DNA of 33,132 nt from Candidatus Woesearchaeota archaeon (GTDB lineage: Archaea > Nanobdellota > Nanobdellia > Woesearchaeales > GW2011-AR15), in assembly GCA_016928835.1 (NCBI GenBank), contig JAFGJW010000013.1, forward strand, positions 1-33,132. Reading direction: 5' to 3'. Under the pieces are notes generated by a model, which searched no databases, had not been told where the DNA came from, and was given only the letters and a program-made list of their open reading frames with translations. Below, piece by piece: positions 5,219 through 27,420 of the stretch. Made by a program: the position numbers and the translations under genes. Position 1 is the stretch's first letter. Every line of letters starts with the position of its first letter.

Positions 5219-5690
5219 GAAGAGTCAGTTTTATCTATTTGCGATTGTGTTGCTATGTAGCTATCTCTTTATGAGCCTTACCGGCCGTTTGACTCTCAGA
5301 CAAGTTGACAGGGATTTTGAGGATTTGTATAATAATTATATCTACGAAGGCATTCGGGTGATAAACAGTGCTGAGTACCACGGGGTTGATGTAAGCGAAA
5401 GGTATGATAATTTTACCTTGGATTTTATCAACTATGCATTACAAAAAAATATTGATCTTGGGATTCTGTATATGATTGTAATCGACAATAAAATTAGAAT
5501 AGTTAATTATTTAAATGAGCCAGTATCTTTAGATTATAATATATATCCGCCTATACTGATGCAGGATGAGGGAGCGTTAATAAATCGTACAGACATAATA
5601 ATAGTTGGGATAGGGGATATTAATTATGAGTATAACATCACCCCAGAGTATCAGACGCAATTGAAAGTGCTATTCAGAAAAGAGGTGTAA
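5211..5690 (+). CDS. Small pilin-like membrane-anchored protein
   Basis: This 159-residue protein has a short basic N-terminus (MTKKSQ) followed at once by a hydrophobic stretch (about residues 7-24) and then a soluble domain with N-x-S/T sites. That is the layout of archaeal type IV pilin-like or minor pilin proteins. The lack of a clear G/A-processing site leaves a simple membrane-anchored protein possible. The ATG lies 8 bases inside the upstream gene and has an AAGGTG ribosome binding site. The next gene begins 1 base after its stop, so it is part of the pilus operon. I recognise no specific family. Confidence 0.75.
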   Translation: MTKKSQFYLFAIVLLCSYLFMSLTGRLTLRQVDRDFEDLYNNYIYEGIRVINSAEYHGVDVSERYDNFTLDFINYALQKNIDLGILYMIVIDNKIRIVNYLNEPVSLDYNIYPPILMQDEGALINRTDIIIVGIGDINYEYNITPEYQTQLKVLFRKEV

Positions 5691-5691
5691 A

Positions 5692-6141
5692 TTGACAAAG
5701 AAGGCCATGTCCCAGTATCTAAGCTGGATTTTATTAATACTTTTTGCAGTAGGTCTCAGCTCGTTTATGCTGGTCTGGACAAGAAATTATGTAAAAGGAC
5801 AGAGTGATGATCTAACCTCAAGAGCAGATAATGCAATGTGCGACGACGTATCTCTTAATCTTGACGGTTATTGTCAAAATTCGCAAACTTTAAATATGAA
5901 TATTACCAATACAAATCTTCTAACAATAGCGTATTTAAGGCTAAGATTTATTGATCTTTATGATAATATTGCTGATAAAAAGATTGAAGCTGATATCTCC
6001 CCTGGAGACACTGAGAGAATCACAGTCCTCAAGCAAGGTACATTGCGCCAGGTGAGGGTTGTCCCTGTTATGATAAATGACAAGAAAGAAATTATTTGCA
6101 ACGGGAAAGGCGTATCATTAGAGGAGATAAAGCAATGCTAA
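5692..6141 (+). CDS. Pilin-like protein with TTG start
   Basis: This 149-residue protein has the pilin layout: MTKKAMSQ, then a hydrophobic helix (about residues 9-28), then a beta-rich domain with several cysteines (CDD..., DGYCQN, IICNGKG, KQC). The start is TTG at 5692, supported by AGAGGTG at 5681-5687 and by a sensible lysine-rich N-terminus. It resembles the next gene's product in architecture: helix, a CTVD/CDDVSL-like cysteine shortly after, then an N-x-T-rich sheet. Probable minor pilin or pilus tip protein. The cysteines may form surface disulfides. Confidence 0.75.
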   Translation: MTKKAMSQYLSWILLILFAVGLSSFMLVWTRNYVKGQSDDLTSRADNAMCDDVSLNLDGYCQNSQTLNMNITNTNLLTIAYLRLRFIDLYDNIADKKIEADISPGDTERITVLKQGTLRQVRVVPVMINDKKEIICNGKGVSLEEIKQC

Positions 6142-6147
6142 AAAGAG

Positions 6148-6669
6148 GTGGTTAAACTGTCAAAACTCATATTCTCAAGAAAGGGAGTTTCTCCGCTTAT
6201 AGCAACTGTGTTACTTATTGCTTTTTCAGTTGCACTTGGGGCAGTTGTAATGAACTGGGGGAGAAGTTTTGTCCAGGAAAAAACAGAGGACGTTGATGAG
6301 AAAGCAGGCACTCAGCTCAAGTGCACTGTTGATATTCTCCTGGATTTTGTAGAGATTAGCAGCGAGAAGCAGGTTTGTTATAATTCGACAGCAAAGCGAG
6401 TTGAATTCATTATTGAAAATATAGGAACCATCAGTGCAGACGGAATAAGCCTACAGATAATTGATGCACAAGACCATATTTATACTTTCCAAAACACTAG
6501 CACTCTAGGTGCTGGCAATGCATCAAAATATTCCTTTAATAATAATGCTATGGACGCTTCGCTTTCCTACATTGGAATCTCTCCTATGATTCTAGCTCCT
6601 GGCAGCGCAATACCGCAGGTCTGCTCATCAAACAAATTAGCGATTAGCGAAGTGAATGAATGTGATTAA
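6148..6669 (+). CDS. Archaeal type IV pilin
   Basis: The N-terminus carries the classic archaeal pilin motif SRKGVSPLIATVLLIAFSVA: basic residues, a glycine for prepilin-peptidase cleavage, then VSP and a hydrophobic assembly helix. The remaining ~135 residues form a beta-rich domain with cysteines. Length of 173 residues is typical. The start is uncertain. GTG at 6148 is part of the best ribosome binding site (AGAGGTGG, 6144-6151), so translation may really begin at CTG 6157, six bases after GGTG. This is the most confidently recognised structural subunit of the operon. Confidence 0.85.
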   Translation: MVKLSKLIFSRKGVSPLIATVLLIAFSVALGAVVMNWGRSFVQEKTEDVDEKAGTQLKCTVDILLDFVEISSEKQVCYNSTAKRVEFIIENIGTISADGISLQIIDAQDHIYTFQNTSTLGAGNASKYSFNNNAMDASLSYIGISPMILAPGSAIPQVCSSNKLAISEVNECD

Positions 6670-7071
6670 ATGGAGCATGAAAAAAGACATACAAGGGTTA
6701 AAATACTATTATTTGCGGTCTTCACAATATTTACGCTTGTATTTATTGGATGGATTTACAGATTTTATGTAGAGGCAAGATATAAAATACAGGAAGATAC
6801 ACTCGAGATTGACTGCTCAGAATATGATTTTGATATAATCACCCAGGATTTATCCAATAAAGGCCATATGTTCGAAGTTAGAAACACAGGCCATACTACT
6901 CTGTCACAGTTGGTTATTGAGGGAGGGAATATTAGAAGAGAGATAAACTTTACAGGGATACTGCCTAAAGAAACAAGCTTTATCCGTATAGAGAATCTGT
7001 CCTCAATAAGTCAAGTGACAGTATATGTTAAAAACTGCCAACAAAAAGGCAAAACATACGAATTAAAATGA
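6670..7071 (+). CDS. Small single-pass membrane protein of the pilus operon
   Basis: This 133-residue protein has a basic N-terminus (MEHEKRHTRVK), one membrane helix (about residues 11-32) and a soluble beta-rich domain containing two cysteines. The ATG directly follows the stop codon of the pilin gene (TAAATG), and its own stop overlaps the next start (ATGA), so translation is probably coupled. It lacks a recognisable prepilin cleavage site but keeps pilin-like size and architecture, so it may be a minor pilin or an assembly factor. No family recognised. Confidence 0.7.
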   Translation: MEHEKRHTRVKILLFAVFTIFTLVFIGWIYRFYVEARYKIQEDTLEIDCSEYDFDIITQDLSNKGHMFEVRNTGHTTLSQLVIEGGNIRREINFTGILPKETSFIRIENLSSISQVTVYVKNCQQKGKTYELK

Positions 7072-7790
7072 AAAAAAAAGGGCAAGTGTGGGTATCTGCT
7101 ATATTGTACACATTAGTTGCAGCGATGGCTATCGTGATTATATTACAGACTGGAATACCTATCTTAAGTAGGTTTAAGGATCAGGCTACTTTCACAAAAA
7201 CAAAAGATGTTATGCTTAACCTTGACAAACATATTACTGAGATAGCCAGAGAAGGGGAAGGCTCGCAGAGGGTTGTGACTATTGACATCACAGACGGTAA
7301 ACTTATAGTTGATAATAATCAGATTGTGTGGGAGCTGGAGACAAAAAATAAATTAATAGATCCAAGAACCAGTCAAATAGAAGGCAACTTAATTATAACA
7401 AGCAATGCCAATGTGCAAACAATTGAGACAGACAATGATTTCATTATGCAGACGCAGATTAAGAATGATACTTTTTCTGTCAATATCAGCAAAATTGGGT
7501 CAAGGAATAATTGGATGGATATCAATACATCGAGCTTGCTGAATTATATCAGTTTCAATGATAATATGATGAACGGAACCTTTAACTTTAGTCTAAATTA
7601 TGATCCCTCCTCAACTTCTGGAAATGGATACACAGAAATGATTCCATCTGGCAACAATTCCAATCTTGGCAAGGCAAAAGTAGTTGCTCATATTAACTCA
7701 AGCTTTGCAGAATATGAGCTTGAGTTTGTGCTTGAAAGCTATGCTGATTTTTTAATCGCAAGAGTCAAAAATTTTGTTCCAAAATCGTAA
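7068..7790 (+). CDS. Pilin-like protein (KKKGQ-type N-terminus)
   Basis: This 240-residue protein begins MKKKGQVWVSAILYTLVAAM, a short lysine-rich leader with glycine before a hydrophobic helix, as in archaeal pilin-like proteins. The C-terminal ~200 residues are beta-rich with many N-x-S/T sites. The ATG overlaps the preceding stop (ATGA at 7068-7071). After this gene comes a 15-base gap and then the ATPase. It is probably an exported pseudopilin or larger minor pilin. The specific role is inferred only from position. Confidence 0.75.
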   Translation: MKKKGQVWVSAILYTLVAAMAIVIILQTGIPILSRFKDQATFTKTKDVMLNLDKHITEIAREGEGSQRVVTIDITDGKLIVDNNQIVWELETKNKLIDPRTSQIEGNLIITSNANVQTIETDNDFIMQTQIKNDTFSVNISKIGSRNNWMDINTSSLLNYISFNDNMMNGTFNFSLNYDPSSTSGNGYTEMIPSGNNSNLGKAKVVAHINSSFAEYELEFVLESYADFLIARVKNFVPKS

Positions 7791-7805
7791 AATGTTCCTT
7801 ATAAA

Positions 7806-9365
7806 ATGGCAGAAGAGACAAAGACAATATTTCAGATTGATACTAGACCAGAGATAGTACAGTTACCAGACATCAGAGAAAGGAGTTCTATTAACATAAG
7901 ATATCCATTACTTAAACCATATGCTTATGCACATATCTTCTGGGATGAGAAAGAAAGTGAACTAGTGTATTTTGTCGAGGAACCTAAACTGTTGCCAGCA
8001 GAGAGAGAAATCCTTCGGTTGATTCAGCTTGCTCTGGAGGAGATGATTAATATTAGCTACACACATGCAAGCAAGATGAATCTTGTTATACAATATCTGG
8101 AGAGGAATGTGCAGGCAATTCTCGTGGAGCTCGGCACCAAGGTATCTAGGGAAACTTACTTAAAACTGATGTATTACTTGTTTCGGGATTCAGTAGGTTT
8201 AAACAGAATTGAGCCTTTGCTGCATGATTATTATATAGAGGATATTGAATGCAACGGGCTTAATTTTCCGCTTTATGTAGTGCATAGAAAATTTGAAAAC
8301 ATGCGGACAAATATTTTGTATAGAAATCCCCAAGAACTGTCTGATTTTGTCGAAAAATTAGCCCAAAAATGTGGTAGATACGTATCTTATGCCAAACCGC
8401 TTCTTGACGGCACCCTGCCTGATGGAAGCAGGGTTAATGCTACTTATACTGAAGACATAACAACCCGCGGCCCTACTTTTACAATAAGAAAATTTACCAA
8501 AGACCCATGGACCCCGATTCATTTAATCAACTTTGGAACAGCACCGGCAATTGTGTTTGCATATATATGGCTGGTGATAGAAAACAAATCCAATATTATG
8601 GTTGTCGGTGAGACTGCATCAGGGAAGACTACTTTCTTAAATAGCATTTTGAGCTTTATTCCTCCTGATGCCAGAATATGCTCTATTGAAGATACTCGGG
8701 AACTTAATCTGGCCCATGAAAATTGGATGCCCTCAGTAACCAGAACTGGGTTTGGCATCCCGAATTTAATAGGGAGGGAGTATGGTGAAGTAACTTTGTT
8801 TGACCTCTTGAAAGAGAGCTTTAGGCAGAACCCTGATTATGTTATTGTCGGGGAAGTGCGCGGCAAAGAAGCATTTGTTCTTTTCCAGGGAATGGCTTCA
8901 GGCCATTCAAGCTTTGGTACATTCCATGCAGGCAGTGTTGAGACTCTGGTTAGAAGACTTGAAACACCCCCAATTAACCTATCCCCTTCGTTAATTGAGT
9001 CTCTGGATATTGTGTGTGTCATGACCCATCTGAAAGAAGTGGACAAAAATATTAGACGAATAAAGCAATTGGTTGAGGTTCAGTCTGTGGAAAGGGAAAT
9101 TGGACAGGTAAACAAAAATATCGCATTTACATGGAACCCTGTTAATGATACAATAGACCAGTCAGGTGAACTTACCATGATTCAGAAAATAAGCCAAAAA
9201 ACCGGTGCTTCTGTAGAGGAGTTAACGAATGAGATAGAGACACGTGCTAGGCTATTAGAGATTATGGCAGAGCAAAAAATTGAGGGATTTAAGTCTGTTA
9301 ATGAGATAATAAAGAGCTATTATGTTAAACGAGACCTGGTCCTTAAGAAGTTTAATCTATTATGA
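7806..9365 (+). CDS. Type IV pilus/secretion ATPase (FlaI/TadA/GspE superfamily)
   Basis: This 519-residue AAA-like secretion ATPase would power assembly or retraction of the filament from the cytoplasmic face. Visible motifs are Walker A GETASGKTT (268-276), Asp box IEDTREL (294-300), Walker B VIVGEVRG with catalytic Glu350, and His box GHSSFGTFHAGS (366-377). An upstream domain (about 60-230) has the usual GLNRIEPLLHDYYIEDIECNG block. The length matches archaeal members. No clear ribosome binding site precedes the ATG at 7806, unlike its neighbours, and a TTATAAA lies just upstream at 7800-7806. The stop overlaps the next start. Family assignment is firm. Pilus versus secretion cannot be decided from sequence, but the pilins favour a pilus. 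Confidence 0.95.
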   Translation: MAEETKTIFQIDTRPEIVQLPDIRERSSINIRYPLLKPYAYAHIFWDEKESELVYFVEEPKLLPAEREILRLIQLALEEMINISYTHASKMNLVIQYLERNVQAILVELGTKVSRETYLKLMYYLFRDSVGLNRIEPLLHDYYIEDIECNGLNFPLYVVHRKFENMRTNILYRNPQELSDFVEKLAQKCGRYVSYAKPLLDGTLPDGSRVNATYTEDITTRGPTFTIRKFTKDPWTPIHLINFGTAPAIVFAYIWLVIENKSNIMVVGETASGKTTFLNSILSFIPPDARICSIEDTRELNLAHENWMPSVTRTGFGIPNLIGREYGEVTLFDLLKESFRQNPDYVIVGEVRGKEAFVLFQGMASGHSSFGTFHAGSVETLVRRLETPPINLSPSLIESLDIVCVMTHLKEVDKNIRRIKQLVEVQSVEREIGQVNKNIAFTWNPVNDTIDQSGELTMIQKISQKTGASVEELTNEIETRARLLEIMAEQKIEGFKSVNEIIKSYYVKRDLVLKKFNLL

Positions 9366-9565
9366 AAGAGATAAAATATATTAAAAAGGACTTGGAGAAG
9401 TTGGTCCTATTGTCTGACTTGTATTATGACTTGTGCCAGAAAGAGACCTCCTCCGATAATGACCTAGAAATGCAGAAATTGAAAGCATATATTGCAAAGG
9501 AGGAGATGCTCAAAATCAACTATAAAATCCACAAACTAATAAAAAGATTGCAGGCTAGGCTCTAA
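9362..9565 (+). CDS. 67-residue helical protein between ATPase and platform genes
   Basis: The protein is almost entirely charged and helix-forming (lysine, glutamate and leucine heptad-like spacing), with no membrane segment, so it is likely a short coiled coil. Its ATG overlaps the ATPase stop (ATGA), and the platform gene begins 18 bases after its stop, which argues for a true gene and a partner role between ATPase and platform. The first ~60 residues of the next protein are also charged and helical, so they may pair. No known family recognised. Confidence 0.7.
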   Translation: MKEIKYIKKDLEKLVLLSDLYYDLCQKETSSDNDLEMQKLKAYIAKEEMLKINYKIHKLIKRLQARL

Positions 9566-9583
9566 AGGGGGAGGCTGGAACTA

Positions 9584-11569
9584 TTGGACAAAATAAAGTC
9601 TTATTGTAGCAGTATATCAAATATTCTGGATGAGGTTCAAGTTTATTATAATTATAAAACACAATTAATTAATGACCTAAAAACACTGGATAAGCAATAT
9701 CAGAGAGGAGACTTTAATTACAAAACCTATATCTCAATTAGGAGCAAATTATTAGCACAGCAGTCAAAAAATGAATGTTTGGAAGACTACGATTCTTATA
9801 TTGATGTGCTGTTGCGGAATGCAGACCATCTTAATGCACAGCTGCTTTCTCTTATCTATAATGATAATACACATGAGGATATAAAAACATTCCCTAAAAA
9901 AGTCCAAAAATCTGTTATTACAACAAAAAATCTACCTTTATTAAAAGACTTGAAGATGGGAGAAGGGGATGTTAGATTAAGAAGGCAAAAAATGAGTAGG
10001 GTTATGGAGATTCCCTCTCACAATGCTATTGAGAAAGAGTTAAGAGGTCGTCTGGCAAAGGATATAGAAATGAAAGATGTATCTCCACTTGACTGGATGC
10101 CTGATAGAAATATGAGTGTGCCGGTTCCGAGCGGGATTCAGCAAGATATGCCCATTCCATTTGATGAAGATAAAATAAAGAGTATGAGTGCAGCTGTTAA
10201 ACCTAAACTAAACAGGGTATCTGATACACTTGATCTTGAACCCACTCTGAGGGAGGATTTGGACAGTAGAGATAAGGAACCACAAAAAATTGCTGAGAAG
10301 ATAGTGCCCCTGCCTGGACCATTGCCATTAGAGGATGTGCCTATTCCGAGACCACATAAATTAAGGTTTCCCAAAAATTTGATTTATGCTTTCCAGTCAA
10401 AAGAGAAACCGATTCTTGAAAAAATTGAAAGCAAGGAGCATGTGACTATGCAGAATATATTGAGTCTGGATTTTATAAGGTATTTATTCTCTAAAGATAA
10501 ACAATTGGATTACATAGGCAGAGAAACTAAGCTGGCTCCTTCTATATTCTTATATGAAGAGGATATGGTGGGAGGAGAGAAATGGCAACCCAGCAAAACA
10601 GAGGTCTTGGATCCTTTCCTACTTCAAAAGCAAGTAAAAGAAATAAAGAGTCTTATATCAATGAAAAAGCCGGCTATATATAAACCAAGTTCGCTGGGAT
10701 ACTTTGCCAATATAACTGTGAGAAGAATAAGCATATATTTTATTGAAAAATTTCCAGATTTTTTCAAAAAACTCTACCAATCACTTCGTTTCTCAAATGT
10801 AAAAATACTCTCGAACACTTATATCAATATCATGATGTTATTTACACTAATTGCATTGGTTTTCAGCATTCCTATTTTCACAGTATATTTTTCCTTGAAG
10901 GGTGCTTCTGTCATTGGTATTATCTTTAAGACACTGGGGATGACATTAATTACATCCATAACAGTATTTTTTGGCATGTATTATTATCCTTTTGCCAGAA
11001 TAAAAAGCAGGCGCCGTTCAATAAATACTAACCTCCCTTTTGCCATAGATCATATGTCCTCTGTTATTGCATCAGGTGTTGCGCCTGTAACTATGTTTAA
11101 GCTTATAAGTGCATCAAAAGAATATGGAGAAGTTTCTATTGAGATAGCTAAAGTGACCAATTATATTGAAGTATTTGGCTATGATGTGCTTACAGCAATT
11201 AGAGCTGTTGCAGCATCCACGCCGTCAGATCAATTGAAGGAATTTTTTGATGGTCTTATCTCAACTATAGAGACCGGTGGCTCACTCAAAGATTATCTGT
11301 CTCAGAAGTCAAAAGAGGCGTTGCTTGCATACAGGCTTGAAAGGCAGAAATATGTAGAGTCTATTTCAACTTATTCGGATATATACACAGGCGTTCTAAT
11401 AGCGGCGCCATTATTTTTTGTGACTGCGCTCTCACTAGTAAGTATGCTGGGTGGCAAGATTGGCGGAATGGATATTAATGTTTTGATTACATTTGGTACT
11501 TATGTTATAATACCTGTATTAAATGTCATTTTTATTTTCTTCCTTGAAGTGACACAACCAGAAGTATGA
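9584..11569 (+). CDS. FlaJ/TadC-type platform protein with long cytoplasmic N-terminus
   Basis: This 661-residue protein carries the membrane platform of the filament machine. The C-terminal part has hydrophobic segments near 412-437, 442-468, 606-630 and 636-657, flanking a T2SSF-like cytoplasmic domain (about 480-600). The first ~400 residues are soluble. They start with a charged helical region, then a proline-rich segment (about 165-265, MPVPS/PLPGPLP-like) and a folded-looking stretch. That extension is longer than in ordinary FlaJ and may be a regulatory or docking arm. The start is TTG at 9584, with GGGGGAGG at 9567-9574. The stop overlaps the next gene, which encodes a second platform protein. 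Confidence 0.88.
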   Translation: MDKIKSYCSSISNILDEVQVYYNYKTQLINDLKTLDKQYQRGDFNYKTYISIRSKLLAQQSKNECLEDYDSYIDVLLRNADHLNAQLLSLIYNDNTHEDIKTFPKKVQKSVITTKNLPLLKDLKMGEGDVRLRRQKMSRVMEIPSHNAIEKELRGRLAKDIEMKDVSPLDWMPDRNMSVPVPSGIQQDMPIPFDEDKIKSMSAAVKPKLNRVSDTLDLEPTLREDLDSRDKEPQKIAEKIVPLPGPLPLEDVPIPRPHKLRFPKNLIYAFQSKEKPILEKIESKEHVTMQNILSLDFIRYLFSKDKQLDYIGRETKLAPSIFLYEEDMVGGEKWQPSKTEVLDPFLLQKQVKEIKSLISMKKPAIYKPSSLGYFANITVRRISIYFIEKFPDFFKKLYQSLRFSNVKILSNTYINIMMLFTLIALVFSIPIFTVYFSLKGASVIGIIFKTLGMTLITSITVFFGMYYYPFARIKSRRRSINTNLPFAIDHMSSVIASGVAPVTMFKLISASKEYGEVSIEIAKVTNYIEVFGYDVLTAIRAVAASTPSDQLKEFFDGLISTIETGGSLKDYLSQKSKEALLAYRLERQKYVESISTYSDIYTGVLIAAPLFFVTALSLVSMLGGKIGGMDINVLITFGTYVIIPVLNVIFIFFLEVTQPEV

Positions 11570-12465
11570 AATTCAAAAGAATATATCTTTTTGGCATTGG
11601 CCTGGGCTTGGCAATTTCACTACTTGATATACTTTTATTTTTGGGAACAAGATGGTTCATCCCATTATTAATAATTTCGGTTACAATAGCTTGGGGTCAT
11701 TTCTGGTTTGATTTTTTCTTGGAAGGGCAGAAGCAGAGGGAGCTTGAAATAAGATTCCTTGATTTTGTTAGGAACCTGGCAGGAGCAATTAAATCCGGCA
11801 TGCCGGTACCAAGAGCAATCACCCATGTTTCCAAGATTAATTATGGTGCGCTTACACCTTATGTGACTAAACTTGGATACCAGGTGGGATGGTCAATACC
11901 TGTGCATAAAGCCCTTATTTTTTTTAGCAACAGCACGAGGAATGATGTAATCAAGAGATCTGTTTCGACTGTGATTGAGGCAGAGCAGTCGGGCGGCAAC
12001 ATGGAGGATGTTTTAGAGTCTATTACAAGCTCTCTTGTGGAGATAAAAAAGATTAAAGAGTCACGCAGAGCGAGCATTCATTCCCAGGTTATTCAATCAT
12101 ATGTCATCTTTTTTGTATTTCTTGGGGTTATGCTGGTTATTCAGAACTTATTAGTGCCATATTTGCTCGGCCAGGAGCAGTCCGATGCTTTTACCGGCGG
12201 ATTAGGTTTGGGAACAGGCCCACAGTCATCCTCTCTTGTCTTGAGTGTTGATATAAAATTTGACTCCTTTGCATCTTTCATTGTCACATTATCAAGATGG
12301 TTTGTCTCTTTAAGAGGGATTTTCATAATGCTTAGCCTTATTCAGGGTTTTTTTGCAGGAGTGATTGTTGGCAAGCTTGCAGAAGGGGATTTGACATCAG
12401 GATTAAAACATTCGTTAATCTTAATGACTATAGCATTCTTTATTATGACCTTATTTGGGACTTAG
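11566..12465 (+). CDS. Second FlaJ/TadC-type platform protein
   Basis: This 299-residue membrane protein has N-terminal hydrophobic segments (about 5-25 and 29-50) and a T2SSF-like cytoplasmic domain (about 55-170) with the characteristic FLDFVRNLAGAIKSGMPVPRAI and EAEQSGGNMEDVLESI stretches. Further membrane segments lie near 175-195, 251-270 and 283-299. It overlaps the first platform gene by 4 bases (ATGA). Tandem platform proteins are usual in Tad-like systems and in several archaeal pili, where they form a heteromeric base. This is the last gene of the + strand operon. Confidence 0.9.
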   Translation: MKFKRIYLFGIGLGLAISLLDILLFLGTRWFIPLLIISVTIAWGHFWFDFFLEGQKQRELEIRFLDFVRNLAGAIKSGMPVPRAITHVSKINYGALTPYVTKLGYQVGWSIPVHKALIFFSNSTRNDVIKRSVSTVIEAEQSGGNMEDVLESITSSLVEIKKIKESRRASIHSQVIQSYVIFFVFLGVMLVIQNLLVPYLLGQEQSDAFTGGLGLGTGPQSSSLVLSVDIKFDSFASFIVTLSRWFVSLRGIFIMLSLIQGFFAGVIVGKLAEGDLTSGLKHSLILMTIAFFIMTLFGT

Positions 12466-12763: not shown

Positions 12764-13021
12764 TTATCTTATAGCATTCTTCACTGCATCCGACCAGTCA
12801 GCATTGCTTGTTCCTGCCAGTGGCATACCATTAGGCATCATATTTACAGGGACGTTCTGCGGACCGCCTAGTGCTTTGCTCACCTTTTTTCTTACACATT
12901 CATTCTGTTTGTCTCCTTTGCAGTACATATTTACAAAACCCTGCAAAGCCATCTTCTTGTCTTCATCTGTTTCATATTCCTTAAAAAATGCACATGTTGC
13001 CAAGTTTTCACAGTCTGCCAT
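12764..13021 (-). CDS. Four-cysteine small protein, copy B
   Basis: This 85-residue protein has C4-x5-C10 in MADCENLATCAFF and C34-x7-C42 in MYCKGDKQNEC, followed by VRKKVSKALGG and a VPVNMMPNGMPL segment. The pattern C-x2-L-x2-C-x-FF ... YC-x-G-x5-C-x-R resembles, from memory, a widespread uncharacterised small protein family often found beside bacterial sensory genes. The four cysteines could bind a metal or act as a redox switch, but this is inferred. A GAGGTGA ribosome binding site precedes the ATG, and copy A lies 18 bases upstream. The two share blocks of 57 and 58 identical bases. Confidence 0.85.
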   Translation of the reverse strand: MADCENLATCAFFKEYETDEDKKMALQGFVNMYCKGDKQNECVRKKVSKALGGPQNVPVNMMPNGMPLAGTSNADWSDAVKNAIR

Positions 13022-13039
13022 TTACTTCACCTCATTATC

Positions 13040-13300
13040 CTAGCTATTAGCAATTGCTTTTACTTCTGCTGGCCAATTTGAATCAGATGTTCCAAGAATT
13101 GGTTTTCCGTCTGGTTTCATATTTACTGGAACATTTTGAGGCCCACCTAATGCTTTGCTCACCTTTTTTCTTACACATTCATTCTGTTTGTCTCCTTTGC
13201 AGTACATGTCTACAAAACCCTGCAATGCTTGTTTTTTTGCTTCGTCTGTTTCATATTCCTTAAAAAATGCACATGTTGCCAAGTTTTCACAGTCTGCCAT
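13040..13300 (-). CDS. Four-cysteine small protein, copy A
   Basis: This 86-residue protein is nearly identical to copy B through residue ~60, with all four cysteines conserved (C4, C10, C34, C42). It differs mainly at the last ~20 residues, where a G-T-S-x-x-W segment remains. A GGAGG site precedes the ATG. It sits directly downstream of the Cache-HAMP receptor on the same strand, 100 bases away, with a perfect palindrome and a mini-ORF in the gap. The strong conservation with a variable tail suggests a shared cysteine-based core and a tail-specific partner or target. Confidence 0.85.
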   Translation of the reverse strand: MADCENLATCAFFKEYETDEAKKQALQGFVDMYCKGDKQNECVRKKVSKALGGPQNVPVNMKPDGKPILGTSDSNWPAEVKAIANS

Positions 13301-13303
13301 TTG

Positions 13304-13339
13304 CTATGCCTCCATTGTTAAGATAATAAGGTGATTCAT
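13304..13339 (-). CDS. Possible 11-codon leader ORF
   Basis: On the - strand ATG at 13339 opens an 11-codon frame (MNHLIILTMEA) that ends with TAG three bases before the ATG of the four-cysteine protein copy A. It has its own AAGGTGA ribosome binding site (13346-13352), which lies in one arm of a perfect palindrome while the start codon lies in the other. It could couple translation to an upstream signal, or be accidental. There is no protein evidence beyond the ribosome binding site. Confidence 0.25.
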   Translation of the reverse strand: MNHLIILTMEA

Positions 13340-13352
13340 AATGAATCACCTT
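13328..13352. promoter_or_regulatory. Perfect 12-bp palindrome upstream of the four-cysteine genes
   Basis: AAGGTGATTCAT and its exact reverse complement flank a single central base. As RNA it folds into a strong hairpin about 30 bases before the copy A start codon and about 50 bases after the receptor stop. It is not followed by a T-run, so it is a weak candidate for a terminator. An operator, an RNA processing or stability element, or a translation switch fits better. Confidence 0.6.
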
Positions 13353-13400
13353 TATTGATTTAATCTGTGGTTTGTCTTGTCTAAAGAGCATAATACTCTC

Positions 13401-15005
13401 TTATTCTTTCTTCTTATGTTCCTTTTTTTCTCCTTTCAAATACTTTATTGCACCCACTAGCAAATTCATTGTCATCCCAATCTCTTCTACTTCGTCACCT
13501 GTTTTTATTTCAGGTATTTTTGCATCTAAGTCTCCGTCAGCAATCTTTTTCCCTGCTTTTGTCATCTTTGATAATGGATCTGTTATCCCTTTGGCAAAGA
13601 GTAAACTAACTGCAACCACAATTATTATTGTGACTAATGTTATCATGAAAATTGTATTCTGAGTGCCCATACCTTCTGTTTTTAATTTTATATCTTCTCT
13701 TGCGTCATCAGCAGGTTTTGTAATCTCTCTGACAGGTACAACAAGAGCAACAGACCATCCTGTCGTTGGAATTGGTGCATAAGTGAAGTATATATCTTCA
13801 TTTATTGCTGGGCAATTGAAGACTTCTGAACCCTGCTCGCCATTAATCATCTTTTCAACAACATCAGGTTGTTTGCATATGTCTCTGAGATCCATTCCTC
13901 TTTTGTCAGCACTTGGGTGTGCAATTACTTTTCCTTTATCATCAATCATCAGCATGTAGCCTGTGGCGGCATATTTAACGTCAACAACATATTCTGATAA
14001 AGTATCCCAATCTATGGGGAATTCAATAAATGCCACCATCTTAGATCCTGAGTTATCAAATTCGCTATATATAGGATGTATTACCTTAACTACATCTGAT
14101 CTAGTACAAGCCTCTGTTGACCATACCGGCTCAACTTTACCATTGTCCCTCAGAACCCATGGGCTTTTGCAGTAATAAGAGTTCCCTATACCATTTGATG
14201 CTGTATGGAACGGCTCCTCTCCAGGTCTTGAGTAAGTAAATTCTACTGCACGGTTTCTATCTCCCCAATAACCCATCCTTGCATTAGCTATTCTTTTATT
14301 TGAATCAATAATAAATTTTGCAGGTTCAAATACAGTCATCTTCTCTTTAATTCTTTCCTGCGCATCCTCATCAAGAAGTTCAAACATGAAATCTACTAAT
14401 GCAAACCTGTTCCCCTTTGTAAATATGGCTTTTCCAACAACAGAATGAAGGTCAGACCATAATTCTTTTTCTATCATAAACCTAGGAAAGAACCTATCTT
14501 TATCCTCGGAAGGGTTAAGGTTTGGGAAATTGCTATTCAAGAGAGCTGTAAGCACTTCATCCAACTTTGCTTTTTGCTCCTTGTCTAACATCTCTAATAG
14601 TTTATTGTACTTTTCATTTTGAATAGTTCCATCAAGAATTCCTTGAAGTTTTGCCTTATTTGTGTGTTCTGGCCAGTCGCTTGTTGCCCAAAAAGCAAAC
14701 GATTCTCCTGAATATTCAACATATTTTAGGTTAGGATTTTCATAGATACTGTGAATTTCTCTGGCCAATCCTTCTAGAGTTCTCTCAGTCTCTTGAAAGA
14801 ATTCATTAATTTCAGTAGCTCGCTCATCTGTGACAGCTCTCATATTGTTTTCTGCTTGATGCATCAATGCCTGCGCACTTACATCTGCAACATCTGAACC
14901 GAGTTTTTTAGCATCGTTTAGAGCTAGGTAGCCTACAATAAATAATGGCACCACTGTTAAAAAAAGCATAATTGCCAAAAGTTTTTTTACAATAGAAATT
15001 TTCAT
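13401..15005 (-). CDS. Cache-HAMP transmembrane receptor lacking an output domain
   Basis: This 534-residue protein has one membrane helix at about 8-30, a ~420-residue outside region, a second helix at about 450-474, and a HAMP linker at 475-524. It then stops in a lysine-rich tail (KGEKKEHKKKE). The outside region looks like a double-Cache ligand sensor: a long N-terminal helix, then a membrane-distal part, then a GYMLMIDDKGKVIAHPS motif typical of the second Cache half. No methyl-accepting, kinase or cyclase domain follows HAMP, although such modules normally do. The ribosome binding site is AAAGGAGGAC. It sits in an operon between small cysteine proteins, which may carry the signal. Family assignment is firm, mechanism unknown. 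Confidence 0.9.
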   Translation of the reverse strand: MKISIVKKLLAIMLFLTVVPLFIVGYLALNDAKKLGSDVADVSAQALMHQAENNMRAVTDERATEINEFFQETERTLEGLAREIHSIYENPNLKYVEYSGESFAFWATSDWPEHTNKAKLQGILDGTIQNEKYNKLLEMLDKEQKAKLDEVLTALLNSNFPNLNPSEDKDRFFPRFMIEKELWSDLHSVVGKAIFTKGNRFALVDFMFELLDEDAQERIKEKMTVFEPAKFIIDSNKRIANARMGYWGDRNRAVEFTYSRPGEEPFHTASNGIGNSYYCKSPWVLRDNGKVEPVWSTEACTRSDVVKVIHPIYSEFDNSGSKMVAFIEFPIDWDTLSEYVVDVKYAATGYMLMIDDKGKVIAHPSADKRGMDLRDICKQPDVVEKMINGEQGSEVFNCPAINEDIYFTYAPIPTTGWSVALVVPVREITKPADDAREDIKLKTEGMGTQNTIFMITLVTIIIVVAVSLLFAKGITDPLSKMTKAGKKIADGDLDAKIPEIKTGDEVEEIGMTMNLLVGAIKYLKGEKKEHKKKE

Positions 15006-15032
15006 TTTTAACTGTCCTCCTTTTTTGATATC

Positions 15033-15206
15033 TTATATATTATCAAATTCTTTAGCCTTGTCCTCTCCTAACAATCCTTTTACTTTTTCTCTGCATTTTT
15101 GTACACAATCTTCTTCACTCATAGAATCCACCAAAGCAGCAGTAGCAGGACCAAAGAATTTAGACATCAATTGCTTGCACTTATCTTTCTTTGAAATGTT
15201 TGTCAC
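15033..15206 (-). CDS. Small cysteine protein heading the receptor operon
   Basis: The core ends in a helical segment with ALVDSMSEEDCVQKCREKVKG and LLGEDKAKEFDNI. There are three cysteines, two as C-x3-C. The start is ambiguous. GTG at 15206 (57 residues) lies inside the best ribosome binding site AAGGTGA, while an in-frame ATT at 15197 (54 residues) lies at normal spacing. A longer frame reaching TTG 15245 would run into the promoter and is unlikely. The receptor gene follows after 27 bases. No family confidently recognised. Its position and cysteines tie it to the same putative sensing system. Confidence 0.7.
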   Translation of the reverse strand: MTNISKKDKCKQLMSKFFGPATAALVDSMSEEDCVQKCREKVKGLLGEDKAKEFDNI

Positions 15207-15247
15207 CTTTTTTAATAGTATATATCTAAATATTCTGGAAAACAAAA

Positions 15248-15258
15248 CTTATAAATAT
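15248..15258. promoter_or_regulatory. Shared, near-symmetric TATA box between divergent genes
   Basis: The sequence CTTATAAATAT is a good archaeal TATA element in both directions. Its centre is about 27 bases from the + strand ATG at 15280, predicting a leaderless HxlR-type transcript. Read leftward, a start near 15225 would leave room for the AAGGTGA ribosome binding site of the small cysteine gene. A second leftward TATA-like stretch lies at 15219-15230. Confidence 0.6.
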
Positions 15259-15278
15259 GAGTTCACAATTTAGAACTC
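15259..15278. promoter_or_regulatory. Palindromic operator candidate
   Basis: GAGTTC (15259-15264) and GAACTC (15273-15278) form a perfect inverted repeat around an 8-base AT-rich centre. The site lies between the TATA box and the start codon of the HxlR-type gene and just upstream of the leftward promoter. A dimeric regulator bound here would block the rightward promoter and could also affect the leftward operon. Confidence 0.65.
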
Positions 15279-15279
15279 T

Positions 15280-15651
15280 ATGGATAAAATAAAAGACTGC
15301 CCAATACTGAAATATCATTATTTTCTAGGGAGGAAATGGACCTACCCTATTCTCTTCCATATGAAAGAAAACCAGGGATATGCCTTTAGTGATTTTATAT
15401 ATATTACAAATCGAAAAATTAGCAGATCACTTTTGCTGTCTTTTTTGAATGAATCCATTTCTCTTTCGATTATAAAAAAAAAGAACCAGAGATATATGTT
15501 AACAAAACTTGGCTTAGAATTAAAAAAGGAATTTATTGAAATAAAAGATAGGTTGTTAAAACATCATATACTCCCACATAATATATGCAGTTTAAAGTGT
15601 TTGATCAATAGAGAAAGAGATTGTATCCTTACAAAATCCTATATAAAATAA
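15280..15651 (+). CDS. HxlR-type winged-helix regulator with extra cysteines
   Basis: This 123-residue protein follows the HxlR pattern: an N-terminal cysteine (C7 in DCPI), LGRKWTYPILFHM, a FSDF..ITNRKISRSLLLSFLNES recognition region, then KKKNQRYMLTKLGLELKKEF. HxlR family members are DNA-binding dimers that often sense electrophiles or oxidants through the N-terminal cysteine. Three further cysteines (C103, C107, C115) lie in the C-terminal tail and could bind metal or form disulfides. The gene appears leaderless, and a palindrome abuts its start codon, suggesting autoregulation and control of the divergent receptor operon. Confidence 0.8.
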   Translation: MDKIKDCPILKYHYFLGRKWTYPILFHMKENQGYAFSDFIYITNRKISRSLLLSFLNESISLSIIKKKNQRYMLTKLGLELKKEFIEIKDRLLKHHILPHNICSLKCLINRERDCILTKSYIK

Positions 15652-17828: not shown

Positions 17829-19712
17829 TTATTCCTCCTCCTTCTCATCATCAACAACTTCTGCATCAACTACCTTTTCTTTATGCTTTCCTTTCGTATT
17901 TTTCTTTGTCTCTGTTTCTGCCCCTGCTTGCTGTTGTTGCTTTGCTGCCTGCTCCTGCGCCACTTTCTGGTAAAGTTCGGTTGACATTGCCTGCACTTTC
18001 TTGTTTATCTCTTCCAGTTTTTTCTTTATCTTTTCTATGTCTTTTTTATCAGGTTTCATAAGCTCCTTTAACTCGTCAATCTCTCTCTTTACTTCTTTTA
18101 ACTTACTTTCTTCCACCTTATCTTTGAATTCATCAAATAGTTTTTCGGTGCTGTAAATTAATGTATCTGCTTGATTAATTATCTCAACTTCTTCTTTCCG
18201 CTTTTTATCTTCTTCAGCGTGCTTCTCTGCCTCTTTCTTCATTTTCTCTATCTCGTCCTCATTAAGCTTCTGTGAGGCTGTTATCTTTATACTCTGCTCC
18301 TTACCTGTTCCAAGGTCTTTTGCAGTTACATGTACAATGCCATTTGCGTCAATGTCAAATGTTACTTCAATTTGTGGTATGCCGCGTGGAGCAGGCGGAA
18401 TTCCAATAAGGTCGAACTGACCCAGCAATTTGTTGTCAGCAAACATAGGTCTTTCGCCCTGTCCAACTCTTATTGTGACAGCAGTCTGGCTGTCTGCTGC
18501 TGTTGAAAAAATCTGCGATTTTTTTGTTGGTATTGTAGTATTCCTTTCAATTAATGTTGTGAACACTCCTCCAAGTGTCTCAATACCAAGCGAGAGCGGA
18601 GTCACATCCAACAACAAGACATCTTTCACCTCTCCAGCAAGCACTCCGCCTTGAATTGCAGCTCCTTGTGCAACGCATTCCATAGGGTCTATGCCTCTTT
18701 CTACTTTTTTTCCTATGGTGTCTTCAACAAATTTTTGCACAATTGGCATTCTCGTAGGACCGCCAACTAAAACGATTTTATCAACCTCATCTGGTTTTAA
18801 TTTAGCGTCCTTTAACGACTGCATTAAGGGTGTCCTGCACTTCTTTATTATTGGCTCGATCAATTGCTCAAGTTTTGACCTTTTTAATTTTAATTCAAAA
18901 TGCTTCGGCCCTTTGTCGTCTGCAGTGATGTAGGGTAAATTTATTTCTGTGTCAAGCACTGTTGAAAGTTCAATCTTGGCTTTTTCTGCAGCTTCTTTCA
19001 ACCTCTGCATGGCAACAGGGTCTTTTTTCAAATCAATTCCTTCTTTTTTATTAAACTCGTCAACAAGATAATCAACTAGGATATTATCCATATCAGTACC
19101 ACCAAGCTGGGTGTCGCCTGAAGTTGATTTAACCTCAAATACTCCTCCTCCAAATTCCATTATAGTGCAATCTAATGTGCCTCCTCCTAAATCAAAAACA
19201 AGTATCTTATGATCCTTCTCAGCTTTGTCCAAACCATAAGCTAGACTGGCAGCTGTTGGTTCATTGACAATCCTTACAACCTCAAGTCCGGCAATCTCTC
19301 CTGCATCTTTCGTTGCCTGTCTTTGGTTATCATCAAAATATGCAGGCACAGTAATAACTGCTTTTTCCACTTTATCTCCAAGAAATGCTTCCGCATCTCT
19401 CTTGATCTTTTGAAGTATGAAAGCAGAGATCTCCTGAGGAGTATATTCTTTGCCATTTATCTTATACTTGTGCTTAGTTCCCATCTTCCTCTTTGCTGCA
19501 GTTATTGTCCTTTCCGGGTTAGATACAGCCTGTCTTTTCGCAGGTTCTCCTACGAGGAGTTGGCCGTCTTTGGCAAAAGCCACCACGCTTGGAAATGCTT
19601 TTCCATAGAGGCTTGAACCTTCTGCACTTGGAATAATCCTAGGTCGCCCCGCCTCTAAAAATGCAGCTGCGCTGTTGGAAGTGCCTAAATCAATACCAAT
19701 TATCTTACTCAT
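17829..19712 (-). CDS. dnaK: Hsp70 chaperone DnaK
   Basis: This 627-residue bacterial-type Hsp70 binds unfolded polypeptides in an ATP-driven cycle. The nucleotide-binding domain begins [13 protein letters not shown] (IDLGTTNS-type phosphate 1), with [32 protein letters not shown] and FDLGGGTLD. The linker is [19 protein letters not shown]. The substrate domain and helical lid run to a Q-rich, charged tail ending [14 protein letters not shown], close to the usual EEVD-like bacterial tail. The ATG overlaps the preceding gene (ATGA). It is the last gene of the grpE operon. Archaeal dnaK genes are known to derive from bacteria. No dnaJ accompanies it here. Confidence 0.98.
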
Positions 19713-20044
19713 TGTACATCACCTTCAATTGTTTCAAATTTCATAAGCATTAATGCCCCCTCGATAACCAACCTTTCAGGGATTGTATCATCAGTCTGAG
19801 GATTTATTATTTGGCATATCTTCTGTGTCATGCCAAGCGGAATACCAATATTCAATGAAACATCGAAAACCCTGTCTATTCCAATATGATATAGTAATGC
19901 TGCGCTCTCCACAAGTGTTTCATCAATCTGTTTTCCTTTAGAGTTATCAATTGCTAACTTCTTGAATTCAAGTGCACGCTTGAACTCTTCTTCATTAAGA
20001 TGTGTTTTTAGATATTCTTTGATTTTATCTTGAAGCGGTTTCAT
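19709..20044 (-). CDS. Degenerate HD-like small protein in the dnaK operon
   Basis: This 111-residue, largely helical protein contains [17 protein letters not shown] (about 45-61), which mirrors the AALLHDIG core of HD phosphohydrolases. The catalytic His-Asp pair is replaced by Tyr-His (Y52, H53), so hydrolase activity is unlikely. The end ([15 protein letters not shown]) resembles the last HD helix. The resemblance is weak and comes from pattern only. It overlaps its upstream neighbour and dnaK by 4 bases each, so its output is probably matched to DnaK. A binding or adaptor role is a guess. Confidence 0.6.
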
Positions 20045-20340
20045 TCTTCTTTATTATCTCGTATTTCTTGGACTCTTTGAGGCGTGAGGATTTCTCTCTC
20101 TTCTTTATTTGTCTGCCTGTGAGGTATTATTTCAGTTACTTCCAGTAATTTGACAAGCAGATTTATATCTATCTCACTCCTATTTTTCACGCTTCCGAGT
20201 GCCTCATACAAGCTTTGGTCAGTTGTGATTAAGTCATAAGTGGTATCTTTGCATGCAATTAATGTGTGTAATTTTTCATTTCCGCATAAATATCTCAGTA
20301 TGGCTTCTGGCTTCAGGAATACCTTTTCTTTCTGTATCAT
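20041..20340 (-). CDS. Small protein of the chaperone operon, possibly PIN-like
   Basis: This 99-residue protein has a segment VFLKPEAILRYLCGNEKLHTLI followed by DLITTDQSLYEALGSV, which resembles the start and second helix-strand unit of PIN domains. The first catalytic aspartate would be replaced by lysine (K12), and the protein is shorter than a full PIN domain (~130), so it is unlikely to be an active nuclease. The C-terminal third is charged. It overlaps both neighbours by 4 bases. The PIN link is tentative, and hypothetical protein is the safe call. Confidence 0.55.
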   Translation of the reverse strand: MIQKEKVFLKPEAILRYLCGNEKLHTLIACKDTTYDLITTDQSLYEALGSVKNRSEIDINLLVKLLEVTEIIPHRQTNKEEREILTPQRVQEIRDNKEE

Positions 20341-20930
20341 TTTAGTTCCTCAATTAAGCCCTTGATTCCGAGTATTTCTTCCCAATCTTGTTCATACCCA
20401 AGTTTTTCATATTTTAGGATTTTACCTAATTCTTTTTGGTCTGGAACAAGCTCTTCAAGCTGTGCGCCCACAAGAGTTTTTCCACCTGATTTGAGGTATG
20501 TTGCATACTGTCTTATTGATTCTGGATCATTTGGATTGAGGAAATAATTGAGATGAAACCAGATAATAAGCTCTTCGCCATAATCCTTGCAGTTCATGGC
20601 AACCCTGCATTCCAAGGGTTTAACCTCATGTATGCTGCATCCCTTCTTAGGGTTAAAAAACACGCACTGCCCAAACGGCAGGTTATCTTTTTTATTTGTC
20701 TTAGGCTTCCACAGTGTGGTATGGAATTTTTCCTGGCTTTCAAGATATTTCTCTTTTAATTTATCCTGGCTGATTTTTAGGAATTTGGCAATTCTTTCCA
20801 AATCCTCCTCAACCAGGAACCCACTGCCGAACTTGCAGGCATTCTCACATCTTTCGCATCGGCACGGCTCGCCCAATTCCAATATATTTTTAAGTGGGGT
20901 ATTCTTGTGTATCATCTTATATCTCTTCAC
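20337..20930 (-). CDS. YkgJ-type cysteine-cluster protein (zinc or iron binding)
   Basis: This 197-residue protein matches the YkgJ family layout: CRCERCENACKFGSG (C23, C25, C28, C32), a DLERIAKFLKIS helix, then FGQCVFF (C89), GCSIHEVKPLECR (C98, C108) and MNC (C114). Eight cysteines in this arrangement are known to bind metal or an iron-sulfur cluster. The reaction, if any, is unknown. The GTG at 20930 overlaps the grpE stop (GTGA). ATG at 20915, five codons later, is an alternative start. Its tight coupling to grpE and dnaK suggests a link to protein quality control, perhaps redox related. Confidence 0.85.
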   Translation of the reverse strand: MKRYKMIHKNTPLKNILELGEPCRCERCENACKFGSGFLVEEDLERIAKFLKISQDKLKEKYLESQEKFHTTLWKPKTNKKDNLPFGQCVFFNPKKGCSIHEVKPLECRVAMNCKDYGEELIIWFHLNYFLNPNDPESIRQYATYLKSGGKTLVGAQLEELVPDQKELGKILKYEKLGYEQDWEEILGIKGLIEELK

Positions 20931-21376
20931 TCGCTGATTTTAACTTTTGAATGCCTAAGCACCCTATCCTTAAGCATATAACCTTTCTGTAATTCTTCAA
21001 GTACTGTTTCTGATTCTTTGTCTGATTTTTCTTTTAACAATACCTCATGTTTATATGGATCAAATTTCTGTCCTGCAGCATCAATAGGTTGAAGACCCTC
21101 CTGTCTTAAGATAGTTAAGAGCTGTGAGTAGAGCGGCCTAATTTTCTGCTCCGTTTCCTTATCTCTCATAGCCTGCTCAAAGCTGTCCAGCAAGGGCAGG
21201 AATTTTTTTATCAACTCAGCGTTGGAATAGGTTATATGGTGTGAAAATTCTTTTTCAACCCTGTTCTTATAGTTGATGAATTCTGCCTGGACTCTTTTTA
21301 AAGTATCTGTGATATCATCAAGTTGTTGCTTTAAAGATAGTTTTTTTGCTTTTGTTTTTTCTGGCTTTTTGCTCAT
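20927..21376 (-). CDS. grpE: Nucleotide exchange factor GrpE
   Basis: This 149-residue GrpE releases ADP from DnaK. The N-terminal half is a long helix (KKLSLKQQLDDITDTLKRVQAEFINYKNRVEKE), followed by KKFLPLLDSFEQAM and the C-terminal beta domain (LQPIDAAGQKFDPYKHEVL ... GYMLKDRVLRHSKVKIS). All of this is typical. A short GGTGATC lies before the ATG at 21376. It leads a run of five overlapping genes ending with dnaK. The 84-base gap upstream carries the likely groEL terminator, so a separate promoter for grpE is possible. Confidence 0.97.
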   Translation of the reverse strand: MSKKPEKTKAKKLSLKQQLDDITDTLKRVQAEFINYKNRVEKEFSHHITYSNAELIKKFLPLLDSFEQAMRDKETEQKIRPLYSQLLTILRQEGLQPIDAAGQKFDPYKHEVLLKEKSDKESETVLEELQKGYMLKDRVLRHSKVKISE

Positions 21377-21400
21377 GCGCGATCACCATAAAAAGGGTAC

Positions 21401-21418
21401 AAAAAAGCTTCTGCTTTT
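21401..21418 (-). terminator. Hairpin with T-run between groEL and grpE
   Basis: On the - strand AAAAGC and GCTTTT pair around a 4-base loop, and the second arm runs into T6. It starts about 42 bases after the groEL stop and about 25 bases before the grpE ATG. It may end or attenuate transcripts from the upstream hsp20-groEL genes. Confidence 0.5.
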
Positions 21419-21460
21419 CTGTATTCAAAAAATAAAATATTTTGTTTGACTTGCAGCTAA

Positions 21461-23095
<1,635 letters not shown>

Positions 23096-23102
23096 TCATC
23101 AC

Positions 23103-23366
23103 CTATTTGACTATTGCAAGTACATCTTTCATTTCCATAATAAGATGTTTCTTTCCATCTATCTCAACTTCCTGTCCGCCGTAACTTTCATAAACAACAA
23201 TGTCCCCTGCTTTTACTGTGACTTCTTTGCCGTCTCCAACTGCCACTACCTCTCCTTGCACTGTTTTCTCTTTTGCGGAGTCTGGTATATATATACCTGA
23301 TTTTGTTTTATTTTCAGCCTCTTTTGGTTTTATCAATACTCTATTACCAAGTGGTTTTATTTTCAT
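23103..23366 (-). CDS. groS: Co-chaperonin GroES
   Basis: This 87-residue GroES, shorter than the ~97 usual in bacteria, has [44 protein letters not shown]. The mobile loop that contacts GroEL is [12 protein letters not shown], and the tail ends DVLAIVK. A GAGGGGTGA ribosome binding site precedes the ATG. It lies 13 bases after cdc48 and 10 bases before groEL, so it is cotranscribed with both. Confidence 0.97.
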
Positions 23367-23379
23367 TTTTCTTCACCCC

Positions 23380-25515: not shown

Positions 25516-25527
25516 TATTATCAATTT

Positions 25528-26373
25528 TCATAATTTTAGTGAGTTAAGTTTTTCAACTCTCTTGCTTATCGGAGGGTGTGTTGAAAATAAATTTATTAGT
25601 GCCTGGCCGCTGAAAGGATTAACAATAAATAAGCTTGCTGTTGCTTCATTGCCTTTAGCCATTGGACGTAATTTAGTACCCTGTTCTAATTTAAGTAAGG
25701 CATTTGATAATCCCTTATGATTATGCAAGAGCCTGGCTGCCGATTCATCTGCAATATATTCCCTTGATCTTGATATGGCTAATTGAATAAGTGTTGCTAT
25801 TATTGGTGTGAGTACTGCAAGGACCAATAATTCTATACCGCTGCCTCCTCTTCTGTCCCTGCTGTCATACCCTCCAAATATTGCAGTCCATCTTGCCATT
25901 GCGGCAACATAGGAAATCACCCCTGCTATGGCTGCTGCAATAGTGGCAATCAAAGTATCCCTGTTCTTAATATGACTTAATTCATGAGCTATTACTCCTT
26001 CAAGCTCCTCTTTGTTCAGTAAATCAAGAATTCCCGTTGTGCATGCTACTGCAGAATTTTTCGGGTTCCTGCCTGTGGCAAAAGCATTTGGATTAGCAGA
26101 GTTTATGATATAGACTTTAGGCGTAGGTAAATTTGCCTTTCTTGCGACCTCTTTAACTATAGAATATAATTCTGAACCCCTTTCAGCTTGTCTTGCTCTG
26201 TACATAGCAAGGACAATTTTGTCAGAAAACAAGTACACAATAAAGTTTAAAGACAATGCAAGTATTAATGCAATAGTAAGTCCAGTGGTGCCACCAATAA
26301 ATTGACCTACAAAAAGCATTAGTCCTGTTAAGGCTCCAAGAAGGAGCACTGTTTTTAATTGGTTTTTTATCAT
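25528..26373 (-). CDS. htpX: HtpX-type membrane zinc protease
   Basis: This 281-residue M48 family protease has two N-terminal membrane helices (about 7-27 and 30-50), then HELSH (130-134), with Glu131 as the catalytic base and His130 and His134 as ligands. The third ligand is Glu205 in SREYIADESA, and further hydrophobic segments lie near 143-165 and 180-200. HtpX degrades misfolded membrane proteins. A GAGGAAA site precedes the ATG at 26373. It sits 32 bases after hsp20 and 12 bases before cdc48, within the stress operon. Confidence 0.95.
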   Translation of the reverse strand: MIKNQLKTVLLLGALTGLMLFVGQFIGGTTGLTIALILALSLNFIVYLFSDKIVLAMYRARQAERGSELYSIVKEVARKANLPTPKVYIINSANPNAFATGRNPKNSAVACTTGILDLLNKEELEGVIAHELSHIKNRDTLIATIAAAIAGVISYVAAMARWTAIFGGYDSRDRRGGSGIELLVLAVLTPIIATLIQLAISRSREYIADESAARLLHNHKGLSNALLKLEQGTKLRPMAKGNEATASLFIVNPFSGQALINLFSTHPPISKRVEKLNSLKL

Positions 26374-26405
26374 GCTATTTCCTCTTTTAAATAGAAAATT
26401 AAAAA

Positions 26406-26876: not shown

Positions 26877-26916
26877 ATATACCACCTCCTGCTCTATATA
26901 AAAGCACCCCTTAATC

Positions 26917-26933: not shown

Positions 26934-26957
26934 ATAGTAGATGTAAAATTAAGCTAG

Positions 26958-26965: not shown

Positions 26966-26979
26966 GTTTTCGGAAAAAA

Positions 26980-26987: not shown

Positions 26988-27010
26988 TTGATGTAATATA
27001 ACCTTATACA

Positions 27011-27418: not shown

Positions 27419-27420
27419 AT

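Follow-up and report, generated by a model that had tools for sequence, protein, structure and literature searches.

We analyzed a stretch of 33,132 nucleotides (hereafter the window) from a Candidatus Woesearchaeota archaeon (GenBank assembly GCA_016928835.1, contig JAFGJW010000013.1), corresponding to contig C18 of a 1.53 Mb genome that is 95% complete. The window carries a set of genes for an output-less membrane receptor, a small three-cysteine protein resembling the STAC domain, two four-cysteine proteins and a divergent regulator of the HxlR/DUF24 type; all five genes of the original prediction are present. The receptor and the small protein are examined here as a putative split transmembrane receptor. 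Genomes, contigs and loci are labelled G, C and L, respectively, and the window genome is designated "own" or G000. Many names of neighbouring genes come from reading translations by eye, and a part of them was scanned against Pfam. The set comprises the following features:

12764..13021, minus strand: four-cysteine protein A, 85 amino acids, a tandem duplicate of B by sequence comparison
13040..13300, minus strand: four-cysteine protein B, 86 amino acids (C4, C10, C34, C42), homologous to a bacterial small protein
13328..13352, minus strand: perfect 12-bp stem-loop (z = -3.05), possible terminator or processing site
13401..15005, minus strand: output-less receptor, 534 amino acids, with Pfam dCache_1 and HAMP; 11 related receptors likewise stop after HAMP
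15033..15197, minus strand: STAC-like protein, 54 amino acids (C7, C31, C35, FGPATA motif), assigned from 25 aligned copies, AlphaFold2, gene order and start context
15249..15257, plus strand: TATA box TTATAAATA of the regulator gene, conserved in L078
15260..15277, no strand: palindrome AGTTC-N8-GAACT beside the regulator TATA box, probable operator
15280..15651, plus strand: HxlR/DUF24-type winged-helix regulator (C7, C103, C107, C115), assigned from a six-sequence alignment and PDB matches

The receptor consists of an N-terminal transmembrane helix, an extracytoplasmic Cache-type sensor, a second transmembrane helix, a HAMP domain and a Lys-rich tail of 14 residues, after which the reading frame stops. 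In the Pfam analysis, HAMP (residues 469-520) scored above the curated cut-off, and dCache_1 (residues 333-420) scored below it. As originally predicted, the Pfam scan of the receptor detected no kinase, cyclase or methyl-accepting chemotaxis protein (MCP) module after HAMP, and the output domain typical of MCP chemoreceptors and histidine kinases is absent. All 12 aligned receptors, from the window, a paralogue and nine further genomes, end shortly after HAMP with Lys-rich tails. The paralogue (313 amino acids) is encoded on contig C7 of the window genome; a Cache-HAMP protein of G373, from the same family, has 423 amino acids, is 50% identical across HAMP and tail, and ends in KGKQKKK. A local truncation or misassembly, which could have produced this architecture artificially, was rejected because the 11 other receptors share the same state. 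The output-less condition of the receptor is real and conserved.

The sensors vary among the 12 receptors (sCache_2, Cache_3-Cache_2, dCache and one 4HB_MCP), and HAMP with a short Lys-rich tail is common to them. An invariable HAMP-tail unit on changing sensors suggests one common cytoplasmic partner. When the receptor HAMP profile was compared with the PDB, the top matches were to Af1503, with E values of 1.7e-10 (Af1503-type HAMP chimera) and 2.5e-10 (Af1503 HAMP). Among other output-less HAMP proteins of the phylum, several carry a longer tail or are accompanied by an LGP/IGP small protein (L115, L119), and no recognisable small partner was seen for further proteins of this kind. The output-less receptor neighbourhood at L119 (2157-5991) is of another type, with HAMP-only proteins next to an IGPVA small protein and Roadblock/LC7 proteins.

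The small protein lies in an open reading frame (15033-15245, minus strand) that opens with TTG. Its homologues put the true start near 15197, where an ATT codon (15195-15197) is preceded by an AGGTGA Shine-Dalgarno sequence. Homologues in several genomes start with TTG or GTG, and the ATT start in the window is probable. The C-x3-C pair noted in the original prediction is present but belongs to a set of three conserved cysteines: C7 and C35 were found in 25 of the 25 intact copies aligned, and C31 in 22. Residues 15-20, FGPATA or FGPASA, are almost invariant (GQ in 2 of 25 copies). No family or solved structure was matched in Pfam, NCBIfam or the PDB, and from the alignment the protein represents a previously uncharacterised family of about 54 amino acids.

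The STAC domain is described as two hairpins that form a four-helix bundle, with the motif LGPx(x)A lying between its first two helices (PMC4834066). AlphaFold2 predicted four helices for the small protein (3-15, 17-24, 31-43 and 45-53) with a predicted local distance difference test (pLDDT) score of 93.4. The GP pair (residues 16-17) falls between helices 1 and 2, F replaces the L of the published motif, and helices 31-43 and 45-53 form the second hairpin. The model thus has both the GPx(x)A motif at the STAC position and the four-helix, two-hairpin topology.

Of 371 genomes sampled from the phylum, 6 gave matches to a two-sequence profile of the small protein, at most six in any one genome. 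Scanning GTDB contigs gave 22 loci, among them ANME-2/Methanosarcinales, two gammaproteobacteria and a Euryarchaeota record; a further genome, with two copies, came from sampling the phylum to which the Methanosarcinales record belongs. In total, 29 loci were collected from Woesearchaeota, Pacearchaeota, ANME-2/Methanosarcinales and two gammaproteobacteria; they include two frame-broken copies (own C7 and G134 C40).

An output-less receptor accompanies the small protein in 12 of these 29 loci. The two genes are adjacent in the window, G373, G150 C43, G213 C38, G187 C3, G134 C69, L052, L055, L062 and L063, and the broken copies are adjacent to a receptor (own C7) or one gene away (G134 C40). 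These broken genes (G000:C7:106124-106296, L020; G134:C40:12581-12746, L047) lie upstream of intact HAMP-only receptors, and the C7 copy has also lost its first cysteine and one C-x3-C cysteine, as in a decaying gene. About 13 of the 29 loci are part of hyp or [NiFe] hydrogenase operons or flank them, including own C15, G150 C1, G134 C13, G336, L053, L055, L058, G187, L052, G373 and own C7. The hydrogenase was recognised by its small subunit (PF01058 and PF14720) and large subunit (PF00374). It is group 2-like, and its closest solved relative is Huc, hydrogenase-2 of Mycobacterium smegmatis. MCP or CheW genes adjoin the small protein in G213 C43, L052, L063 and L055. The gene order is MCP-small-receptor-hypC-hypD in L052 and CheD-CheR-MCP-CheW-small-receptor in L063; L055 has CheW-small-hydrogenase, and then an HxlR gene divergent from small-receptor-hycI-hypC-hypD. 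Other neighbours are small membrane proteins (L059, L070, L142) and a V4R protein (L064). In L069 (Kistimonas asteriae strain KMD 001) and L070, both from gammaproteobacteria, and in L059 and L142 (ANME/Methanosarcinales), the small cysteine protein is found by uncharacterised small membrane proteins, with neither receptor nor hydrogenase.

The divergent regulator fits its original assignment. A six-sequence profile of the regulator and five relatives matched YodB (E value 5e-13), HxlR, HypR/YybR and QsrR in the PDB; the relatives match Pfam HxlR, and the window protein alone falls under the Pfam cut-off. C7 and C107 are invariant (6/6), and C7 aligns with Cys11 of HxlR and with the HypR cysteine. 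Published work identifies Cys6 and Cys101 in YodB, and Cys11 in HxlR, as sensing positions (PMC8063818, PMC7835342). The protein is, as judged from these alignments, a relative of thiol-type HxlR/DUF24 proteins, and by likeness its DNA binding may respond to redox changes or electrophiles. Four of the five aligned relatives are divergent from a small-protein gene or a four-cysteine gene. The predicted TATA box and palindrome are also present, the palindrome once in the window (0.02 expected) and, as a perfect copy, once in the genome. Both elements recur at the orthologous promoter in L078, whose regulator is 49% identical and divergent from a four-cysteine gene, and the palindrome probably acts as an operator. 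AsnC-type regulators with C-terminal cysteine clusters (L112, 3426-3938; L049, 7428-8003), whose divergent neighbours are an output-less receptor and a four-cysteine gene, constitute a second class of cysteine-bearing regulators in this position.

The two four-cysteine proteins are a tandem pair of 79-83% identity, and C4, C10, C34 and C42 are invariant across their homologues. In the 371-genome sample, their genes were found in the window genome and in G187; a third match, in G084, was weak and interrupted by a stop codon. Outside this sample they were found in G373 and G377, and all four genomes also carry the small protein. A relative encoded on a Leptolinea plasmid (BCY19589.1, AP024711) aligns at all four cysteines (hhalign E value 1.3e-7). 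It was found using a consensus as the probe, and the homology itself rests on the real sequence; by this comparison the proteins belong to a wider bacterial family. A scan of GTDB contigs with the four-cysteine protein found nothing, nor did a scan of viral contigs; comparison with Pfam, NCBIfam and the PDB gave no match, and the AlphaFold2 model (pLDDT 55) was unusable.

The original prediction placed these genes in one operon with the receptor and named the cysteine proteins as its partners. The genes share a strand and are separated by short gaps, but between the receptor and the four-cysteine genes lies a 100-bp gap with the perfect 12-bp stem, which makes their co-transcription uncertain. 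The small protein is a recurrent genomic partner of the receptor, whereas the four-cysteine protein was rejected as a regular one, since most receptor loci are without it and elsewhere it is unlinked. Unlinked genes in other genomes, the outcome named in the original prediction as counting against it, were thus seen for the four-cysteine genes; receptor and small protein remain linked across genomes, as do regulator and small protein. The four-cysteine gene stands alone with an HxlR orthologue in G377 and lies at a contig end in G373; in G187 it diverges from an AsnC-type regulator whose C-terminal part carries a cluster of cysteines. In none of these three genomes does it adjoin a receptor. 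The window appears to merge two modules, a receptor set and a four-cysteine set.

We propose that the receptor and small protein together make up a transmembrane receptor that is split in the manner of Af1503/Af1502, an interpretation to which we assign a probability of about 0.62. The small cysteine protein is, on gene order and predicted topology, probably the messenger or adaptor that the receptor lacks. The Cache domain would sense an extracellular ligand. HAMP and the short Lys-rich tail, as the entire cytoplasmic part, would pass their conformational state to the separate STAC-like four-helix protein, which would bind HAMP and stand in for the missing output domain. This protein could then act on hydrogenase, chemotaxis or membrane partners, and its cysteines may form a thiol or metal switch. 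The regulator would control the set via the palindrome at its promoter, and the four-cysteine proteins would be another module of small proteins, governed by a regulator of the same type, that was joined to the receptor operon in the window genome.

Several observations weigh against this proposal. Foldseek searches with the small-protein model gave no E value below 0.001, 5A1Q included, and the PDB sequence search returned no STAC. Alignment by hhalign with an LGPATK small protein adjoining another output-less receptor gave an E value of 0.015 and a probability of 3%. At 54 amino acids, the protein is shorter than the published 60-90. Eight copies (L057, L059, L064, L069, L070, L142, L143 and G134 C70) have no adjacent receptor; the receptor is therefore not the sole partner. 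Linkage was counted at places found via the small protein, so the counts give its contexts and not the share of receptors that have it.

The hydrogenase linkage raises another explanation, in which the small protein serves chiefly as an accessory factor of the hydrogenase, for maturation or for metal or electron handling, and its adjacency to receptors reflects a shared redox regulon. Its position directly beside [NiFe] small-subunit genes or in hyd/hyp operons at about nine loci, some of them receptor-free, is consistent with such a role, as are its three conserved cysteines and the group 2-like hydrogenase with Huc as nearest solved relative. However, small-receptor pairs without a hydrogenase gene nearby (the window, G150 C43, G213 C38, L062, L063), copies adjoining MCP/CheW or unrelated membrane proteins, and the STAC-like motif and predicted topology all make it unlikely. 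The orders MCP-small-receptor (L052), CheD-CheR-MCP-CheW-small-receptor (L063), MCP-CheW-small (G213 C43) and CheW-small (L055), and the che operon adjoining small-hydrogenase in own C15 and G336, could instead mean that HAMP-only receptors enter mixed chemoreceptor arrays, with the small protein as an adaptor on the CheW/MCP side. We regard this as distinctly improbable, since the receptor is without the hairpin that binds CheA/CheW, the window copy has no adjacent che gene, and the gammaproteobacterial and several ANME copies have none nearby.

The five genes might also work together, as originally predicted, in a single pathway devoted to redox sensing, with the four-cysteine proteins receiving the signal of the receptor. 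They have short gaps on one strand and a single divergent cysteine-bearing regulator, and both genomes with intact four-cysteine genes in the 371-genome sample carry the small protein (P 2e-4 with the window genome counted, 0.014 without it). The separation of these genes from the receptor in G377, G187 and G373, their absence from most receptor loci, and the stem-loop and 100-bp gap ahead of them render such a pathway very unlikely.

In the split-receptor interpretation, the presence of the STAC-like protein in both [NiFe] hydrogenase and chemotaxis clusters suggests that it probably ties membrane sensing to redox or hydrogen metabolism or to taxis. A more speculative idea, which we consider a long shot, is that output-less receptors, the chemotaxis system and [NiFe] hydrogenase all share the cysteine STAC microprotein as a diffusible messenger gated by redox state. 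If so, one adaptor would read both outside ligands and the hydrogen or redox state, which would imply that DPANN archaea and ANME perform hydrogen or redox taxis. The literature searched offers no settled account of how archaeal HAMP-only receptors, which have no output domain, transmit their signal. The family is short, well conserved, often located by a single receptor gene and tied to hydrogenase, an enzyme that can be read out, so a direct receptor-adaptor test is possible. A connection of hydrogen metabolism with sensing in Woesearchaeota and ANME-2 archaea is possible.

Elsewhere in the window, type IV pilus/archaellum-like genes (5211-12465, plus strand, with T2SSF at 11566-12465) end just ahead of the receptor/cysteine-protein set. 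On its other side, a chaperone and redox cluster was recognised by eye at 17829-30795 (DnaK, GrpE, a bacterial-type chaperonin-like protein, a Cdc48-like ATPase, HtpX-like and Hsp20-like proteins). It includes a thioredoxin-reductase-like flavoprotein (28918-29820), and a protein with a CxxCxxxC cluster (CRCERCENAC, 20337-20930) is encoded close to the chaperone genes.

Af1503 exemplifies an archaeal family in which HAMP is the sole cytosolic part, and Af1503-like receptors are often coupled to proteins of 60-90 amino acids such as Af1502 (Korycinski, Hartmann, Lupas, PMC4834066). Like Af1503 of Archaeoglobus fulgidus, the window receptor has an extracytoplasmic sensor, transmembrane helices, a HAMP-only cytosolic part and a neighbouring gene for a small helical protein, a coupling found here at 12 loci. 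The receptors described here differ from Af1503 in their sensor domains (Cache types). Transport genes are often, though not necessarily, abundant around Af1503-like receptors; here such genes were seen, by eye, only at G134 C40 (PstS-like) and C70 (transporter-like), and the neighbours were mostly hydrogenase or chemotaxis genes, along with thiol-type regulator genes.

The small protein shares GPx(x)A between helices 1 and 2 and, in its predicted model, four helices in two hairpins with the stand-alone STAC protein Af1502 (5A1Q) and the STAC domains of CbrA/CrbS, and with Af1502 also the coupling to output-less receptors. It differs in having FGP instead of LGP and three conserved cysteines, besides its shorter length and lack of a significant sequence or Foldseek match to STAC; Af1502 itself escapes sequence searches, according to its authors (PMC4834066). 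The STAC domain of CbrA lies packed beneath the transporter and was proposed as a coupling element relaying motion to the kinase (PMC13022988), and a 2026 CbrA preprint called the role of the domain unclear.

The regulator resembles YodB, HypR, QsrR and HxlR in its winged helix, a Cys at the reactive N-terminal position, a C-terminal Cys and a palindromic site. It differs in being archaeal, in its extra C-terminal cysteines and in its divergence from a receptor-STAC operon. The archaeal four-cysteine proteins are longer than BCY19589.1, tandem in the window genome and HxlR-linked. The open-access papers searched yielded no description of the cysteine-bearing variant, its hydrogenase/chemotaxis linkage or the four-cysteine module. 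The original view that the combination was undescribed did not hold for its core: the receptor and small protein fit the published Af1503/Af1502 (STAC) arrangement in motif, topology and gene position and are therefore of a known kind. What is new is the cysteine-bearing variant linked to hydrogenase and chemotaxis genes.

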